Assembly (NCBI GenBank): GCA_012517675.1
Contig: JAAYUL010000001.1
Location: 1-37,928 of the forward strand
Direction of reading: 5' to 3'
Source: Clostridiales bacterium
Lineage (GTDB): Bacteria; Bacillota; Clostridia; Oscillospirales; Acutalibacteraceae
DNA: 37,928 bases
Under the pieces are notes generated by a model. It was not told the origin of the DNA, did no database searches, and saw only the letters and a list, made by a program, of their open reading frames with translations. Positions 23,033 through 30,238 of the stretch are shown in pieces. The stretch's first letter is position 1. Every line of letters begins with the position of its first letter. A program made the position numbers and the translations under genes.

Positions 23033-24511
23033 TTACAGGATAATACAGATCAGGCCGTTGCACCCGTCGTTGATGATGCGCTCAATCGTTTCGCGCACCT
23101 TGTCGCGCGCGTCGCCCGGCATCCGGTACAGCTTGTTATGGAGCCCTTCGTTGACAAGCTCGTGCAGGTTTTTACCGAAAATATTGGATTCCCAGATTTT
23201 CGCGGGGTCCGCCTCGAACTCCTTGAGCAGATACATGACAAGCTCCTGCGACTGCGCCTCGGAACCGACGATCGGCGTAAGCTCCGTTGTAATCCGCGTT
23301 TTCATCATGTGAATGGAGGGTGCGGCGGCTTTCAGACGAATGCCGTACTTTCCGCCCTGCTTGATGATTTCGGGTTCCTCCAGCGAAAGCTCCTCGATTC
23401 CCGGCATAACAATGCCGTAGCCGGTTTCCTGAACATCCTGATACGCCTGCCTGATTTTGTCATACTCTTTTTTGGTCTGCGCAAGACTGAGAACCGTGTC
23501 GAGCAGCGTTCCTTCGTCATTGATTTCAATTCCGGTTTTCTCGCCCAGGATTTTATAAAACAGATTCTGGTCGAGCAGGACGGAGATTCTTGCATGGCCG
23601 GAACCCAGCTCGATCGAAGTGGTTTTTGCCCCGCGGACATATTCGCATTTCTGAACGTCGTCCACAATCCTGTCGACGTCGCGGATTTTCGATATCTGCG
23701 CGGCGGATTGCTGTATGGTTCCGTAAACTGCCGAACGCAGCCAGTGGTCCTTTTCCAGGGTGGAAATCCAGTGGGGCATATCCACTTTTATTTCTTTCAC
23801 CGGGAATTCAAACAGGACCTTGGCCAGAATCTCGCGGATCTCCGTTTCGTCCATTTCCAGACAGTTGACCGGAAGGACCGGAACGCCGTAGCGCTTCTGT
23901 AAATTTTCAGCCATGGAAACCGATTCCCCGGAAGCGGGGTTGACACAGTTCAAAAGAACGATAAACGGCTTTTGAATCTCCTGCAGCTCTTTAACGACAC
24001 GCTCTTCCGCTTCCTCGTATTCCGCGCGGGGAATGTCGCTGATGCTGCCGTCCGTGGTAATCAAAAGGCCGATGGTGGAATGCTCCGTAATGACTTTTTT
24101 CGTTCCGATTTCGGCGGCCATGTTAAACGGTATCGGCTCGTCGTACCAGGGCGTCATCACCATGCGCGGCATATCGTTTTCTATGTAGCCGAGCGCGCTG
24201 GGAACAATATAGCCCACGCAGTCGATCAGGCGGACGGAAAAAGTCGCGCTGTCGTCCACATGAACCGTTACCGCCTGCTCCGGCACAAATTTCGGCTCGG
24301 TTGTCATAATGGTGCGTCCGGCGGCGGACTGGGGCATCTCATCAATCGCGCGGTCGCGGCGGTAGGTGGAGTCCATGTTCGGGACAACGATCAAATCCAT
24401 AAACTTCTTGATGAAGGTGGATTTCCCGGTCCGGACCGGGCCGACCACGCCGATATAGATATCCCCGTTGGTGCGCTGCGAAATATCGCTGTAAATATTG
24501 CGTTCTTCCAT
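23033..24511 (-). CDS. spoIVA: stage IV sporulation protein A
   Basis: NIYSDISQRTNGDIYIGVVGPVRTGKSTFIKKFMD Walker A; conserved C-terminus GCNGLICIIL. Confidence 0.97.
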   Translation of the reverse strand: MEERNIYSDISQRTNGDIYIGVVGPVRTGKSTFIKKFMDLIVVPNMDSTYRRDRAIDEMPQSAAGRTIMTTEPKFVPEQAVTVHVDDSATFSVRLIDCVGYIVPSALGYIENDMPRMVMTPWYDEPIPFNMAAEIGTKKVITEHSTIGLLITTDGSISDIPRAEYEEAEERVVKELQEIQKPFIVLLNCVNPASGESVSMAENLQKRYGVPVLPVNCLEMDETEIREILAKVLFEFPVKEIKVDMPHWISTLEKDHWLRSAVYGTIQQSAAQISKIRDVDRIVDDVQKCEYVRGAKTTSIELGSGHARISVLLDQNLFYKILGEKTGIEINDEGTLLDTVLSLAQTKKEYDKIRQAYQDVQETGYGIVMPGIEELSLEEPEIIKQGGKYGIRLKAAAPSIHMMKTRITTELTPIVGSEAQSQELVMYLLKEFEADPAKIWESNIFGKNLHELVNEGLHNKLYRMPGDARDKVRETIERIINDGCNGLICIIL

Positions 24512-24557: not shown

Positions 24558-26093
24558 TTACATGGGAATCAGCAGCATCCTCCTGTTCTCAACGGAATCG
24601 CCGGAAAAGTCGTTTTCCAGCCGGATCGCATCCGCGGAGGTGCAGTAGGTCCTTGCAATATTCCAAATGGTTTCCCCGGCGTCCGCATAGTAAATGCTCA
24701 GCGCCGCGGATTGATCCCGTGCCCTCGGCTTGGTTTCATCCGCCGTTACTTCCGTAATCATTTTGAACGTCTGCTGAACGGAAACGTTGGCGCACAGCTT
24801 CAATTCCGCCTTTACCTCAAGCCCCGCACCCATAATGCGGTAGCTGATTCCCCCGACACAGACTTCGGCGGAGCAGCGCAGGTTCCCTGCCGGGGCCGTA
24901 TACGGCTTTGCATACTCAAAATCCGCCATGCGTTCAAAATAGAACGGCCTGCTTTCCTCGTTGAGCGCCAACACACACAGATTGATTTTCCCTTTAAAAA
25001 CAAGCTGGTCGTTTTCGCATGAGGCGGAAACCGTACTCATTTCATTCCAGATATCCAGCACTTTTGTTACGGTGGTGTCCTCGGTGCTCAGCGATGTTTT
25101 CAGCACGTAATTGTCACAGACGCACTGTACCAGGTTATCCATGCTTTTTTGTTTGCTCTCGATATTCATATCGTATTTTTTGGAATACGCATCGGTCACA
25201 ATGGTAACTTCCGAAGGCAGGTAGGCGGCGGCGTCCGCAAAAAGCTTGATCTGCGCGTCAAAAAAGATTTTGTCGCCGGAATAATCGTTTTTGATCTGAA
25301 TGTCGACCCCGATCACGCTGATTTTCAGGTCGCACATGCAGTCCTCCGTCGCGCCGTCGCAGTCCACCATCTGTGTAAACGGAACCGCGTACTCCATCGC
25401 CTCCAAATTGAAATCACTTTCGCCGGAGGAATACAGAAGCCTGACATACACCTCGCCCTTCGCCATGATTTTGTTCGGAATCACTTTAAAATCCTGAACG
25501 GCGACAAACGCATCCGTGCGCATGATATTGTCCGCCGTGGGCTTCCCCTGACCAAGCTCCAGCACTTCGTCCACACTGAACTGCTGCCGGCCCAGACCGA
25601 CCATGCGGTTGACGGTAAGGGTGTCTTTCTTCTGTTCCACATCATCGCCTTCAATACCGCTCACCACTTCGCTTTCCGTTTGTGCCATAACACGCGCACA
25701 GACGGAAAAAGCCCCGTGGATGTCAAGGCGGCGGGGGCTGGTGGCCCGGCAGTTGATATATTCCACGCGGGGAAACGCGATAATCTGTGCGTTTTCCGCA
25801 CTTTGCTTTAAGGGAATGGAAACACTGAAGGTATCGCTGCTGTCGCAGCAGCGTACAAAGGTGCCCGCCGAATCAAGATAAAAAACCTTGACAGTATAGC
25901 TGCCCTCCAGTTCCAGCCTATCCCCTGTGATTCCCTTCGATAAGATGCGGGGATAAACCTGGCATTTTAAAATGCGCTGAATATCCGGACAATAGTCGGG
26001 CAGGCTGACGTCAAGGTCAACAGGCTGTTCCTGGCAGCCGTCATAGATCAGCTCGCTGGCAGCCAACGCCTCGCGGTCAAGCATATAATCCAT
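24558..26093 (-). CDS. sipL: SPOCS (DUF3794) domain protein with C-terminal LysM; SipL-like spore coat morphogenetic protein
   Basis: 511 aa with repeated DUF3794-like segments (CQEQPVDLDVSLPDYCPDIQRILKCQVYP; SVDEVLELGQGKPTADNIMRTDAFV) and C-terminal LysM-like SIYYADAGETIWNIARTYCTSADAIRLENDFSGD; immediately upstream of spoIVA. Confidence 0.8.
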   Translation of the reverse strand: MDYMLDREALAASELIYDGCQEQPVDLDVSLPDYCPDIQRILKCQVYPRILSKGITGDRLELEGSYTVKVFYLDSAGTFVRCCDSSDTFSVSIPLKQSAENAQIIAFPRVEYINCRATSPRRLDIHGAFSVCARVMAQTESEVVSGIEGDDVEQKKDTLTVNRMVGLGRQQFSVDEVLELGQGKPTADNIMRTDAFVAVQDFKVIPNKIMAKGEVYVRLLYSSGESDFNLEAMEYAVPFTQMVDCDGATEDCMCDLKISVIGVDIQIKNDYSGDKIFFDAQIKLFADAAAYLPSEVTIVTDAYSKKYDMNIESKQKSMDNLVQCVCDNYVLKTSLSTEDTTVTKVLDIWNEMSTVSASCENDQLVFKGKINLCVLALNEESRPFYFERMADFEYAKPYTAPAGNLRCSAEVCVGGISYRIMGAGLEVKAELKLCANVSVQQTFKMITEVTADETKPRARDQSAALSIYYADAGETIWNIARTYCTSADAIRLENDFSGDSVENRRMLLIPM

Positions 26094-26172: not shown

Positions 26173-26198
26173 ATGCCGGCCGCGGTTGCGGCCGGCAT
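26173..26198 (-). terminator. Rho-independent terminator downstream of spoVM-like gene
   Basis: Perfect 11-bp stem atgccggccgc-ggtt-gcggccggcat followed on the minus strand by TTTTTATTG. Confidence 0.85.
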
Positions 26199-26205
26199 GC
26201 TCTGT

Positions 26206-26286
26206 TTACGCTTCCTTTTTGATATTGAAAAAAGTGCGGAGTAAAAAGCCTAAAAATTTCGGACTTTTAAAAACAACAACCTTCAT
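26206..26286 (-). CDS. spoVM: SpoVM-like stage V sporulation micropeptide (26 aa)
   Basis: Translated by eye: MKVVVFKSPKFLGFLLRTFFNIKKEA; RBS AGGGGG 7 nt upstream; shares the MK....K.PKFLG...R pattern of B. subtilis SpoVM (MKFYTIKLPKFLGGIVRAMLGSFRKD, recalled); lies next to thiN as in B. subtilis. Not in the ORF track (below its size cutoff). Confidence 0.9.
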   Translation of the reverse strand: MKVVVFKSPKFLGFLLRTFFNIKKEA

Positions 26287-26301: not shown

Positions 26302-26475
26302 TTATGTTCTGCATCGCAGCAACGCAATACCCAATCCGACAATAATACAGGCCGCAATAAACAGCATCAGGCCCGGCGGACAAAAACAGGAGAAAATCAG
26401 CCCAAGCCCGAACACAATCGCATAGGAACCCGGAAAACACCATTTGTTGTTCCTTTGGCACCGCATCCGAACCAT
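26302..26475 (-). CDS. 57-aa predicted small membrane protein upstream of spoVM
   Basis: Translated by eye: MVRMRCQRNNKWCFPGSYAIVFGLGLIFSCFCPPGLMLFIAACIIVGLGIALLRCRT; RBS AAGGA spaced 6 nt from ATG; stop 15 nt before spoVM start. Confidence 0.65.
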   Translation of the reverse strand: MVRMRCQRNNKWCFPGSYAIVFGLGLIFSCFCPPGLMLFIAACIIVGLGIALLRCRT

Positions 26476-26595
26476 CACCTTTCCTTCAGGGCCGCCGCCT
26501 CCATAACTCTAATTTCATAATATTCAGGTGTGATATTTTTGTGCGATGAAAATAAGAAGTTTGTAAAAGCGTAACCACAGGGTATTTTCTGCCGA

Positions 26596-26633
26596 AAAGG
26601 AAAAGGGCCGGGATACAAGATCGTATCCCGGCC
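26596..26633 (-). terminator. Rho-independent terminator downstream of thiN
   Basis: Perfect arms ggccgggatac / gtatcccggcc, 6-nt loop, T-rich tail on the minus strand. Confidence 0.75.
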
Positions 26634-26671: not shown

Positions 26672-27301
26672 TCAGACATTCTCCAGCACGATGATCAGCG
26701 CATTGCCGCCGTGCACGGTTATTTTTGCATTTTCATCCACAACGACATTGCTGACCCCGATCGGCTGGGACGCGCAAAGCCGCGTTTCGGTCAAAGGATA
26801 CTTCAGCCCTTCGTAAGATACCGTGCAGGAGGAAACGCCAAAGGGAAAAACCGAAACAGTGGCGCCGACAATCCCGCTCAGGGTAAGCCTTCCCCCGTTC
26901 AGGAGGAAAACGCGGCAGCCGTCGCCGGAAATCATGGCGCGGCAGCCCTGCCCCGCCAGAAACTGAAGGATGTAAAGATTGGCAATGGAGTGGTCAATCC
27001 GGCCGCCCAAAACGCCCAGCAGTAAAAAATCGCGAAAGCCGCGGCGAATGGCGATTTTTACGGCCGCCATGGTATCGGTGTCGTCTTTTTCCCGCTTCAG
27101 GCGTATCGTTTCCACATTTTCCGGCGGCGCGCTCTGCGCCGAATCAAAATCGCCCACCACCAGGTCCGGCGTAACACCGTACCGCAAAGCGGAATCCAGC
27201 CCGCCGTCGGCACAGACGACAAAAGAATTTTTCCGGTCGAATTCTCCGGTAAAATCAGACTCCCTGCACGAAGCCGATCCGATAATCACGCATCTTTTCA
27301 T
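26672..27301 (-). CDS. thiN: thiamine diphosphokinase
   Basis: CADGGLDSALRYGVTPDLVVGDFDS, LKREKDDTDTMAAV, LLGVLGGRIDHSIANL; start MKRCVIIG at 27301 (alternative 27313). Confidence 0.94.
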   Translation of the reverse strand: MKRCVIIGSASCRESDFTGEFDRKNSFVVCADGGLDSALRYGVTPDLVVGDFDSAQSAPPENVETIRLKREKDDTDTMAAVKIAIRRGFRDFLLLGVLGGRIDHSIANLYILQFLAGQGCRAMISGDGCRVFLLNGGRLTLSGIVGATVSVFPFGVSSCTVSYEGLKYPLTETRLCASQPIGVSNVVVDENAKITVHGGNALIIVLENV

Positions 27302-28188
27302 TTCAGATTCCATTCCTTTATTTCTTTGACTTCCGCATACATCGCCGCATAGCTGTCATGCCTTGAGCGGCTGATTTTGCCTTCTTCCACCGCCCGAATG
27401 ACCGCGCAGCCCTTTTCACACACATGAGAGCAGGAAGTAAACCGGCAATGGTTCCGGTACGGTTCAAACTCGCGGAAGCAGTACTGAAGATCTTCTTTCC
27501 GGACAAGGTCGTACCGCTCGATCTGTATGGAGGAAAAGCCCGGCGTATCGGCAACATAGGTGTTTTCCCCGAGACGGATCAGTTCGACCTGGCGGGTCGT
27601 GTGGCGCCCCCTGCCCAGTTTATAACTGATCTCCCCCGTTTCCAGATTCAATCCGGGGGCGATGCGGTTCAGCAGCGAAGACTTTCCGACGCCGGAGTTC
27701 CCGGTAAACGCAGTGATTTTCCCGGCAAGCCGCGGGCGTACCGCTTCCACGCCGTCTCCCGTGGCGGAGGAAACTGAAAAGCAGAGGAATCCGGCCTTTC
27801 GGTAAATTTCTTCAATCTGCCCGCCGCTTTGCAGGTCGGTCTTGGAAATGACCAGGATCGGTTCGATCCGCTTGTCCTCCGCGGCGGCAATGGTCTTGTC
27901 GATCACAAAGAAATTCGGCGCGGGATCGCACACGGAGACCACAATCATCAGCTGGTCGATATTGGAGACAGGCGGCCGCACCAGAAAGTTTTTTCTGGGC
28001 ATGATTTCTTCTATGTAGCCCGTGCCGTCCTTTTCCGCCTGAATCCGGACCGTGTCCCCGGTCATCGGCGATATTTTATTTTTCCGGAAAAGCCCCCTTG
28101 CCCTGCACTCATATACCATACCGGCGGCTTCCACATAATAGAAACCGCCGATTCCTTTGATAATTCTTCCCTGATGCATTTCACTCAT
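27298..28188 (-). CDS. rsgA: ribosome small subunit-dependent GTPase A
   Basis: FTGNSGVGKSSLLN, DTPGFSSI, CRFTSCSHVCEKGCAV zinc site; start MSEMHQGRIIKG at 28188 preferred over 28338. Confidence 0.95.
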   Translation of the reverse strand: MSEMHQGRIIKGIGGFYYVEAAGMVYECRARGLFRKNKISPMTGDTVRIQAEKDGTGYIEEIMPRKNFLVRPPVSNIDQLMIVVSVCDPAPNFFVIDKTIAAAEDKRIEPILVISKTDLQSGGQIEEIYRKAGFLCFSVSSATGDGVEAVRPRLAGKITAFTGNSGVGKSSLLNRIAPGLNLETGEISYKLGRGRHTTRQVELIRLGENTYVADTPGFSSIQIERYDLVRKEDLQYCFREFEPYRNHCRFTSCSHVCEKGCAVIRAVEEGKISRSRHDSYAAMYAEVKEIKEWNLK

Positions 28189-28195
28189 AGGCCGT

Positions 28196-30238
28196 TCACT
28201 GTGTGACGGACGGAGCCGGAGTGATGCTGGCCGAGCTTGCGGAGGAGGAACTGCTGCTGGCGGGCGGCTCATATTCATAGCCCGCGGTTTTGGTGACGAC
28301 AGGCGTTGCCGAATCAAAATTGACGGTATAGACCGCATATTTGTTGCCGTCCAGCTCCACGGTTATGGTCTTTTTCCCACTGGTACCCGTGACCAAAATG
28401 GTGTAGTCGGGGTTATAAACCGGCTTTAATGAAACATCGGTATAGTTTTTCATGGGTTCATTGCCAAGATAAGCGTTCAAAGTGACCTCGTTGCTTACAC
28501 TCGGAAGCTGAACCACCACTTCCGCCGTCCGTTCGGAATATTTTCCGGAACTGACCACAAGGTTAACCACTGAACCTTTTGCGAGGGGTACCCCGGGCAG
28601 CGGGTCGGTCTCCAGAACCGTATCCTTCGGTTTTCCGCTGTCATCCTTGGAGGTTACCGTCCCAACGGTCAGACCCTTAGCCAAAATCTGCGTTTTAGCG
28701 TCCGATAAAGTCATGCCGAATACCGAAGGAACATTCACCTGCTCATCGGATGACCCGCTGCTGACATAAACCGTAATCAGCGTGGTCCCCTTCACGGCCT
28801 GCGTGCCCTGCGGCGGATTCGTGCTTTTCACATAGCCTTTCTTCACCGTATCATCCTGCACCGGCTCAATTTTATAAGGAAGATCAAGCTTCAGCAATTC
28901 GCTTTCCGCTTCTTCCTGCGTTTTATTGGAAAGGTCCGGCACAACGACCGGTTCCCCGCCGCCGTTGACCACAAGGGTCACCTTGGAATTTGCCTTGACC
29001 GTGGTCCCCGCTTTCGGCGTCTGGCTCAATATAATGCCGGCATCCTGGCTGGAATCGTATTTTGTTTCCGTTTCAAAGGTAAACTGGGAACTATACTGCT
29101 TTTGAACGTTCGTCAGCGTTTTTCCGACAAAATTCGGGAGTGAAACATCGCTTGGCTGCGCGTTGAAGCTGCGAATCAGGGCGGCAACCCCAAAACCGAT
29201 GGCGACAATCAAAAACGCGGCCGCAATGCCGGCGATGATTGCAACGGATTTCTTTTTCTTCGGTTTGGAGGTGTCCAGATCCTCTTCGTACTCATAGTTG
29301 TCGTTGTAGGCGGCAGACTCCGCATTTTTCACGCTGTTGATGGCGTCCACGTATTTGGTCGGGTTTTCATCCACAAAATATTTGTATTGGAAGCTGATGC
29401 TCGGGTTCCGGCGGAATTCCTCGATGTCGTTCAGCATTTGCGCGGCGGACTGGTAACGCTGCGCCGGATTTTTCTGCATGGCTTTCAGCGTGATCTGCTC
29501 CAGGCCCTCCGGAATCGCGGGGTTAATCTCTCTCGGCGGCTTCGGGTCGGCCTGCAGCTGCATAATGGCGACCGATACCGCGTTGTCCGCCTCAAACGGC
29601 AGCCGTCCCGTCAGCATCTCATACAGCATGACGCCGACGGAATACAGGTCTGCCTTTTCATCCGTAATGTCGCCTCTGGCCTGTTCGGGGGCAATATAGT
29701 GGACCGAGCCGATGGCTTTGTCCGTCATCGTCCTCGTTTCGCTGCGGGAAAAGCGGGCAATGCCGAAATCCGTCACCTTGATGGTGCCGTCCTGCAGCAG
29801 CATGATGTTCTGCGGCTTGATATCGCGGTGAACCACGCCCTTTTCATGAGCATGCTGCAGCGCGCGCAGAATCTGAACCGTGAAATGGATTGCTTCTTTC
29901 CACTTGATTTCCTTTTGCTGGTCCAAATATTCCTTCAGCGTAATGCCGTCAATATATTCTTCCACAATATACTGAATCCGATCGCCGAAGCTTACGTCGT
30001 ATACCTTTACAATGTTGGGATGGGAAAGCACCGCGATTGCTTTTGACTCATTTTTAAAACGCCGGATGAATTCTTCGTTTCCAAGGAATTCATCCTTCAT
30101 GATTTTAATCGCCACTGTCCGGTCGTCAATCGTGTCGTATGCGCGGTAAACAAGCGCCATTCCGCCAACGCCGATCAGTTCATGAATCTCATACCGTCCG
30201 TCGAGCCTCTTGCCGGTGTATTTATCCACACATATCAA
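28196..30238 (-). CDS. prkC: Stk1/PrkC family PASTA-domain Ser/Thr protein kinase
   Basis: GVGGMALVYRAYD, HRDIKPQNIML, DFGIAR; TM segment; three PASTA-like repeats. Confidence 0.95.
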   Translation of the reverse strand: MICVDKYTGKRLDGRYEIHELIGVGGMALVYRAYDTIDDRTVAIKIMKDEFLGNEEFIRRFKNESKAIAVLSHPNIVKVYDVSFGDRIQYIVEEYIDGITLKEYLDQQKEIKWKEAIHFTVQILRALQHAHEKGVVHRDIKPQNIMLLQDGTIKVTDFGIARFSRSETRTMTDKAIGSVHYIAPEQARGDITDEKADLYSVGVMLYEMLTGRLPFEADNAVSVAIMQLQADPKPPREINPAIPEGLEQITLKAMQKNPAQRYQSAAQMLNDIEEFRRNPSISFQYKYFVDENPTKYVDAINSVKNAESAAYNDNYEYEEDLDTSKPKKKKSVAIIAGIAAAFLIVAIGFGVAALIRSFNAQPSDVSLPNFVGKTLTNVQKQYSSQFTFETETKYDSSQDAGIILSQTPKAGTTVKANSKVTLVVNGGGEPVVVPDLSNKTQEEAESELLKLDLPYKIEPVQDDTVKKGYVKSTNPPQGTQAVKGTTLITVYVSSGSSDEQVNVPSVFGMTLSDAKTQILAKGLTVGTVTSKDDSGKPKDTVLETDPLPGVPLAKGSVVNLVVSSGKYSERTAEVVVQLPSVSNEVTLNAYLGNEPMKNYTDVSLKPVYNPDYTILVTGTSGKKTITVELDGNKYAVYTVNFDSATPVVTKTAGYEYEPPASSSSSSASSASITPAPSVTQ

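Follow-up and report, generated by a model that had tools for sequence, protein, structure and literature searches.

A two-helix hairpin gene heading the spoVM unit in many Clostridia is a candidate auxiliary factor in spore coat anchoring

In Bacillus, SpoVM recruits the coat scaffold SpoIVA and is essential, whereas in C. difficile it is largely dispensable. The spoVM locus described here, which lies in a window of 37,928 nt (the whole stretch of DNA that was analysed), carries a previously unannotated open reading frame (ORF) directly ahead of spoVM. It thereby raises the question as to whether this ORF is a genuine gene and, if so, whether its product takes part in attaching the coat to the developing spore.

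The ORF occupies positions 26302-26475 of the minus strand and encodes 57 aa from an ATG at 26475, and its stop is followed after 15 nt by the ATG of spoVM at 26286. The latter gene (26206-26286, minus strand) encodes a protein of 26 aa matching NF033436 (SpoVM_broad; E 1.1e-11, 44.5 bits, cut-off 31), and it possesses a strong ribosome site of its own, TTAGGGGG. The pair is enclosed by two intrinsic terminators on the same strand, one after thiN (26606-26633; a 12-pair stem with a T-rich tail) and one after spoVM (26173-26198; an 11-pair stem followed by TTTTTTATTG). The frame, the 15-nt spacing and both terminators are as the sequence-only reading had described them: the ORF heads a two-gene, terminator-bounded unit that also contains spoVM, and co-transcription of the two in the window is predicted. 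No sigma-70-type promoter was found between the two terminators (26633-26606 and 26198-26173).

The upstream neighbours, also on the minus strand, are thiN (thiamine diphosphokinase, 26672-27313; TIGR01378, E 8.6e-45) and rsgA (ribosome small subunit-dependent GTPase, 27298-28338; TIGR00157, E 2.5e-66, and PF03193). Downstream, the order hairpin gene, spoVM, sipL, spoIVA continues on one strand, with a sipL-like gene at 24558-26093 (PF12673, 'SipL, SPOCS domain', E 8.3e-31, 106.5 bits, cut-off 23.6) and the gene for the spore coat morphogenetic ATPase SpoIVA at 23033-24511 (TIGR02836, E 6.3e-222 over 23036-24511). Since the sipL-like SPOCS gene lies between spoVM and spoIVA, the three are neighbours in the window.

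The exact start of the ORF may differ from the one given above. A start at Met4 (26466), which would yield a protein of 54 aa, is as likely as one at 26475, and homology favours it, since in most relatives the protein starts with M-R where the window ORF has Met4. A GTG at 26478 provides a further possible in-frame start, and a ribosome site of the AAGGAAAGG type is within reach of both 26475 and 26466.

Being short and without a database family, the stretch between thiN and spoVM could have stayed open by chance, a reading that is already refuted by the conservation described below and to which we attach practically no probability. Homologues are present in 10/10 genomes of the same genus, with E values from 1e-16 to 4e-12, and there is no in-frame stop in any of the 11 genus members. 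Among these 11, the third codon position is variable at 42/47 sites and the second at 18/47, and the median pN/pS is approximately 0.4; in the other frames, pN/pS is 0.9-1.4 in four of the five and 0.47 in the remaining reverse frame. The predicted bias towards synonymous substitution is thus borne out, as is conservation of the frame in relatives with intact spoVM, which extends from the whole genus to far beyond it. Class-wide profile matches and their position also speak against a chance frame, as does a full-length profile-profile match between distant groups (score 45.7, versus at most 23.4 in column shuffles). A scan of genome contigs with the 57-aa protein as a single query found no relatives, the reason being that the family does not conserve identical words of 8 residues. 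We conclude that the ORF is a real gene under protein-level constraint across its genus.

Members of the family are approximately 47-60 aa long, with about 50 residues being typical, and have a common layout. A basic N-terminus, with a mean net charge of about +3 over the first 14 residues, precedes helix 1, in which Gly25 is invariant (45/45 in alignment A5); Pro33 marks the turn in 41/45, and helix 2 is followed by a short, weakly basic tail. Acidic residues are scarce, at about 0.3 per protein. The window ORF has the two hydrophobic helices, the turn Pro, the helix-1 Gly and the basic N-terminus, and its AlphaFold2 model, which is moderately confident (mean pLDDT 72.8, pTM 0.41), predicts helices at residues 15-30 and 35-56 around the Pro turn. 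These features uphold the earlier description of a small hairpin with a basic N-terminus and a predicted membrane location. Its description as Cys-rich, conversely, captures a trait that is frequent within the window's own family only: the Cys columns of the alignment contain 9-38% Cys, so that the hairpin family as a whole lacks an invariant or conserved Cys.

Scans of the ORF and 49 relatives against Pfam and NCBIfam returned sub-threshold matches only, and by this measure the family is covered by no model in either collection. Two candidates were considered and rejected. For DUF6249 (PF19762), no match is listed for the ORF, and five of the scanned relatives reach 14.6-16.9 bits against a cut-off of 33; for PRA1 (PF03208), the ORF scores 14.9 bits (E 0.019) against a cut-off of 30.1. 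The similarity of the two hydrophobic segments to these families was treated as weak and compositional. An identity with SpoVM itself was also rejected, as the ORF has no NCBIfam match, NF033436 included.

How far does the gene extend beyond its genus? In the 98 nearest relatives, approximately 57 of 68 spoVM loci have a double-hydrophobic ORF of 47-60 aa as the immediate same-strand neighbour ahead of spoVM, and the gap to spoVM in most genomes has a median of about 15-25 nt. Nearly all strong matches in a search of 240 class-wide genomes with profile A1 adjoin spoVM or spoVM-like ORFs; A1 included a row, G022, with mistyped letters, which was left out of the 80-locus scan and of A5. For that scan, 80 named loci were picked by SpoVM alone, with the SpoVM alignment A3 used in place of A2, which was too diverse. 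Among their 1806 ORFs, the profile matched the ORF just upstream of spoVM at 40 loci and nothing else.

A diverged hairpin is present at two more of these 80 loci. Of the other 38, most have only 41-105 nt between the end of thiN or rsgA and spoVM, showing that the hairpin gene is absent there rather than missed. The hairpin-less loci (within L222-L299) include many Ruminococcus-labelled metagenome-assembled genomes, and the pattern of presence and absence is a clean one. With about half of the SpoVM-chosen loci devoid of the gene, the hairpin is not an obligate component.

The merged profile A8 matches 111/240 genomes, namely 105/179 that are SpoIVA-positive versus 6/61 that are SpoIVA-negative (Fisher p 4.5e-12, a value that overstates the evidence because species are not independent, so that more weight falls on the occurrence in dozens of families). 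The other 74 of the 179 SpoIVA-positive genomes have no A8 match. Wherever both genes were called in this sample, the hairpin gene immediately precedes spoVM and shares its strand (43/43); A8 was built partly from the same 240 genomes, which favours matches there, but not their position. Judged by these profile matches, the family spans many families of Clostridia.

The region ahead of the gene carries a promoter-like motif, CACA-N15-AATATTATG (26516-26543, minus strand), found by pattern matching approximately 50 nt upstream of Met4 and of the SigK-like, mother-cell type. The form (A/C)AC(A/C)-N15/16-AATAT(A/T)NT(G/A) follows thiN in 11/11 genus members. A looser SigK-like pattern, mACm-N14-17-[N]ATAnnnT[AG], precedes the hairpin gene at 36/60 loci and is present in 52/3589 control windows (1.4%) from the same loci; as the pattern was formed by eye on the genus members, it is a description within the genus and a test only outside it. 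At hairpin-less loci, the same motif precedes spoVM itself in 30/40, which suggests that the hairpin gene has been inserted between spoVM and its promoter. By the Bacillus consensus, the motif resembles that of SigK, and a CATA-type -10 element is common to SigE and SigK. The spoVM gene of C. difficile is under sigma-E control (PMC5607322). Within the loci studied here, a scoring scan for Bacillus-type SigE promoters gave nothing above shuffles, and a strict SigE pattern occurred at 4/60 loci versus 2.7 expected.

A counterpart was sought in genus g239, one member of which (G347) has an RpoB that agrees at every position of a 180-aa stretch (100% identity) with chain C of the C. difficile structure PDB 7l7b. 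In these Clostridioides genomes, a gap of 35 nt separates an ORF of 50 aa, MRNNKSKVLLGILCLATGMAVILSMLLPGWIWSALTALILIGCGALLFFC, from spoVM, and rpmB is convergent. Ribis et al. (2017) reported a 50-aa protein of unassigned function, CD25622, co-transcribed upstream of C. difficile spoVM, and called it unique to Peptostreptococcaceae (PMC5607322). The Clostridioides family alignment matches the window family over 47 of about 49 columns without gaps, with a probability of 96.9 and a score of 45.7, whereas the best of 40 column shuffles scores 23.4 and the reversed control 14.6; the 50-aa ORF of g239, rather than the CD25622 entry sequence, served as the CD25622 counterpart in this comparison. On the strength of the profile match, the window hairpin and CD25622 are homologous, and the family extends beyond Peptostreptococcaceae. 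The novelty claimed for the window protein is thus lost to a homologue published in 2017.

The same study provides the available genetics. Insertions in CD25622 were judged to be polar on spoVM and resembled spoVM mutants, with heat resistance lowered 3- to 5-fold and coat detachment in approximately 20% of cells (PMC5607322). The CD25622 insertion caused no defect beyond that of the spoVM mutant (PMC5607322), although, being likely polar, it does not represent loss of CD25622 alone. The mildness of this polar mutant, together with the many spore-formers that do without the gene, argues against an essential role.

Family f43 departs from the usual arrangement. The main hairpin is present in all 22 of the f43 genomes examined, and at several loci (L303, L306, L311, L319, L321) it lies between thiN and rpmB, which is convergent; a second small hydrophobic ORF (MRYTYKKISGLLALLSGIMLISRFSPNWLFY...) separates thiN from the main hairpin. 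No recognisable spoVM was seen between the hairpin and rpmB at the f43 loci that were read, where the gaps are 40-290 nt and some are too short for spoVM. In the class sample, most f43 genomes have SpoIVA, and none has a SpoVM match at E <= 0.01; a diverged SpoVM may lie elsewhere in these genomes. An earlier genomic survey also did not find SpoVM in some Clostridia (PMC3533761). In family f45 (G145, G168, G189, G228), two close profile matches occur at the spoVM locus, which suggests tandem hairpins in another family as well.

We interpret the observed coding constraint, family, position, promoter motif and SpoIVA co-occurrence as follows. The hairpin gene is on balance likely to be a sporulation gene, the first of the mother-cell spoVM unit, whose product would be an auxiliary and non-essential anchor or stabiliser, acting at the outer forespore membrane beside SpoVM, SipL and SpoIVA. 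Transcription in the mother cell would begin at the promoter ahead of the hairpin gene and proceed through it into spoVM. Both helices would then enter the mother-cell membrane, and by the positive-inside rule the two ends of the protein, basic at the N-terminus and weakly basic at the C-terminus, would face the cytoplasm. At the outer forespore membrane, the protein may help to hold SpoVM, SipL and SpoIVA in place, and could thereby serve the basement layer of the coat as a dispensable membrane anchor or stabiliser. The apparatus by which the coat is fixed to the forming spore thus probably includes the hairpin as a component that had escaped notice. Of the sequence-only reading, the selected hairpin linked to coat-anchor genes therefore stands, novelty and Cys-richness do not, and the anchor role continues as a proposal.

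Other roles would also fit parts of these data. In a variant of the anchor proposal that we think unlikely, SpoIVA or SipL would have in the hairpin an alternative anchor in the membrane, which shares this job with SpoVM and took it over in f43-like lineages, with their tandem hairpins and no recognisable SpoVM; if true, this could explain the near-dispensable SpoVM of some Clostridia. An equally unlikely option is a sporulation membrane protein unrelated to SpoVM and SpoIVA, for instance in cortex formation, engulfment or transport, that merely has a promoter in common with spoVM. Persistence of the hairpin in f43 would suit such a role, and the linkage to spoVM may be for timing alone, yet the exclusive adjacency to spoVM (43/43) and the continuation of the window order to sipL and spoIVA point away from it.

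SpoVM is a substrate of FtsH, and small hairpins are common as protease adaptors or inhibitors. Both facts, and the discussion of SpoVM with FtsH in the literature, would accommodate a protein that modulates proteolysis in the membrane, for example by FtsH, and so protects SpoVM and other membrane proteins of the mother cell or sets their timing, instead of forming a structural part of the anchor. We found no sequence link to a known FtsH modulator, however, and the neighbourhood gives no pointer to one, which leaves this role improbable. More improbable still is a leader ORF whose translation serves spoVM in cis by translational coupling, the peptide itself being without function. The closeness of the ORF to spoVM, seen in most genomes, and the low expression of spoVM in C. 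difficile (PMC5607322) are what such a leader would predict. It is opposed, however, by the selection on the amino-acid sequence, by the class-wide retention of Gly25, Pro33 and the hairpin layout, by the f43 loci that retain a hairpin with no recognisable spoVM before rpmB, and by the strong ribosome site that spoVM has in the window.

The preferred role as an auxiliary anchor can be set beside three known systems. With CD25622, the window protein has in common a length of approximately 50 aa, the first place in the spoVM unit and the hairpin layout MR...G...P...G; identity is only about 26%, however, few Cys are in common, and the Clostridioides unit is followed by convergent rpmB, whereas that of the window is followed by sipL and spoIVA. 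What is new is that a CD25622-type family, absent from Pfam and NCBIfam, reaches far past the single family to which it was thought to be confined. Its presence in the spoVM unit across a large part of Clostridia makes it a direct candidate for the missing clostridial coat-anchoring factor. Like the hairpin, SpoVM is a small membrane-associated sporulation protein of the same unit, but it is a 26-aa amphipathic surface helix, while the hairpin is built from two hydrophobic segments; the sequences of the two proteins show no similarity. Finally, SpoVQ (CD3457) of C. difficile belongs to the mother-cell membrane proteins and meets both SpoIVA and SipL at the outer forespore membrane (PMC8265636). 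It is bitopic, with a large soluble part, and was reported as specific to Peptostreptococcaceae, unlike the two-helix hairpin; as a functional analogue rather than a relative, SpoVQ nonetheless offers a model for what a hairpin-like partner could do (PMC8265636).
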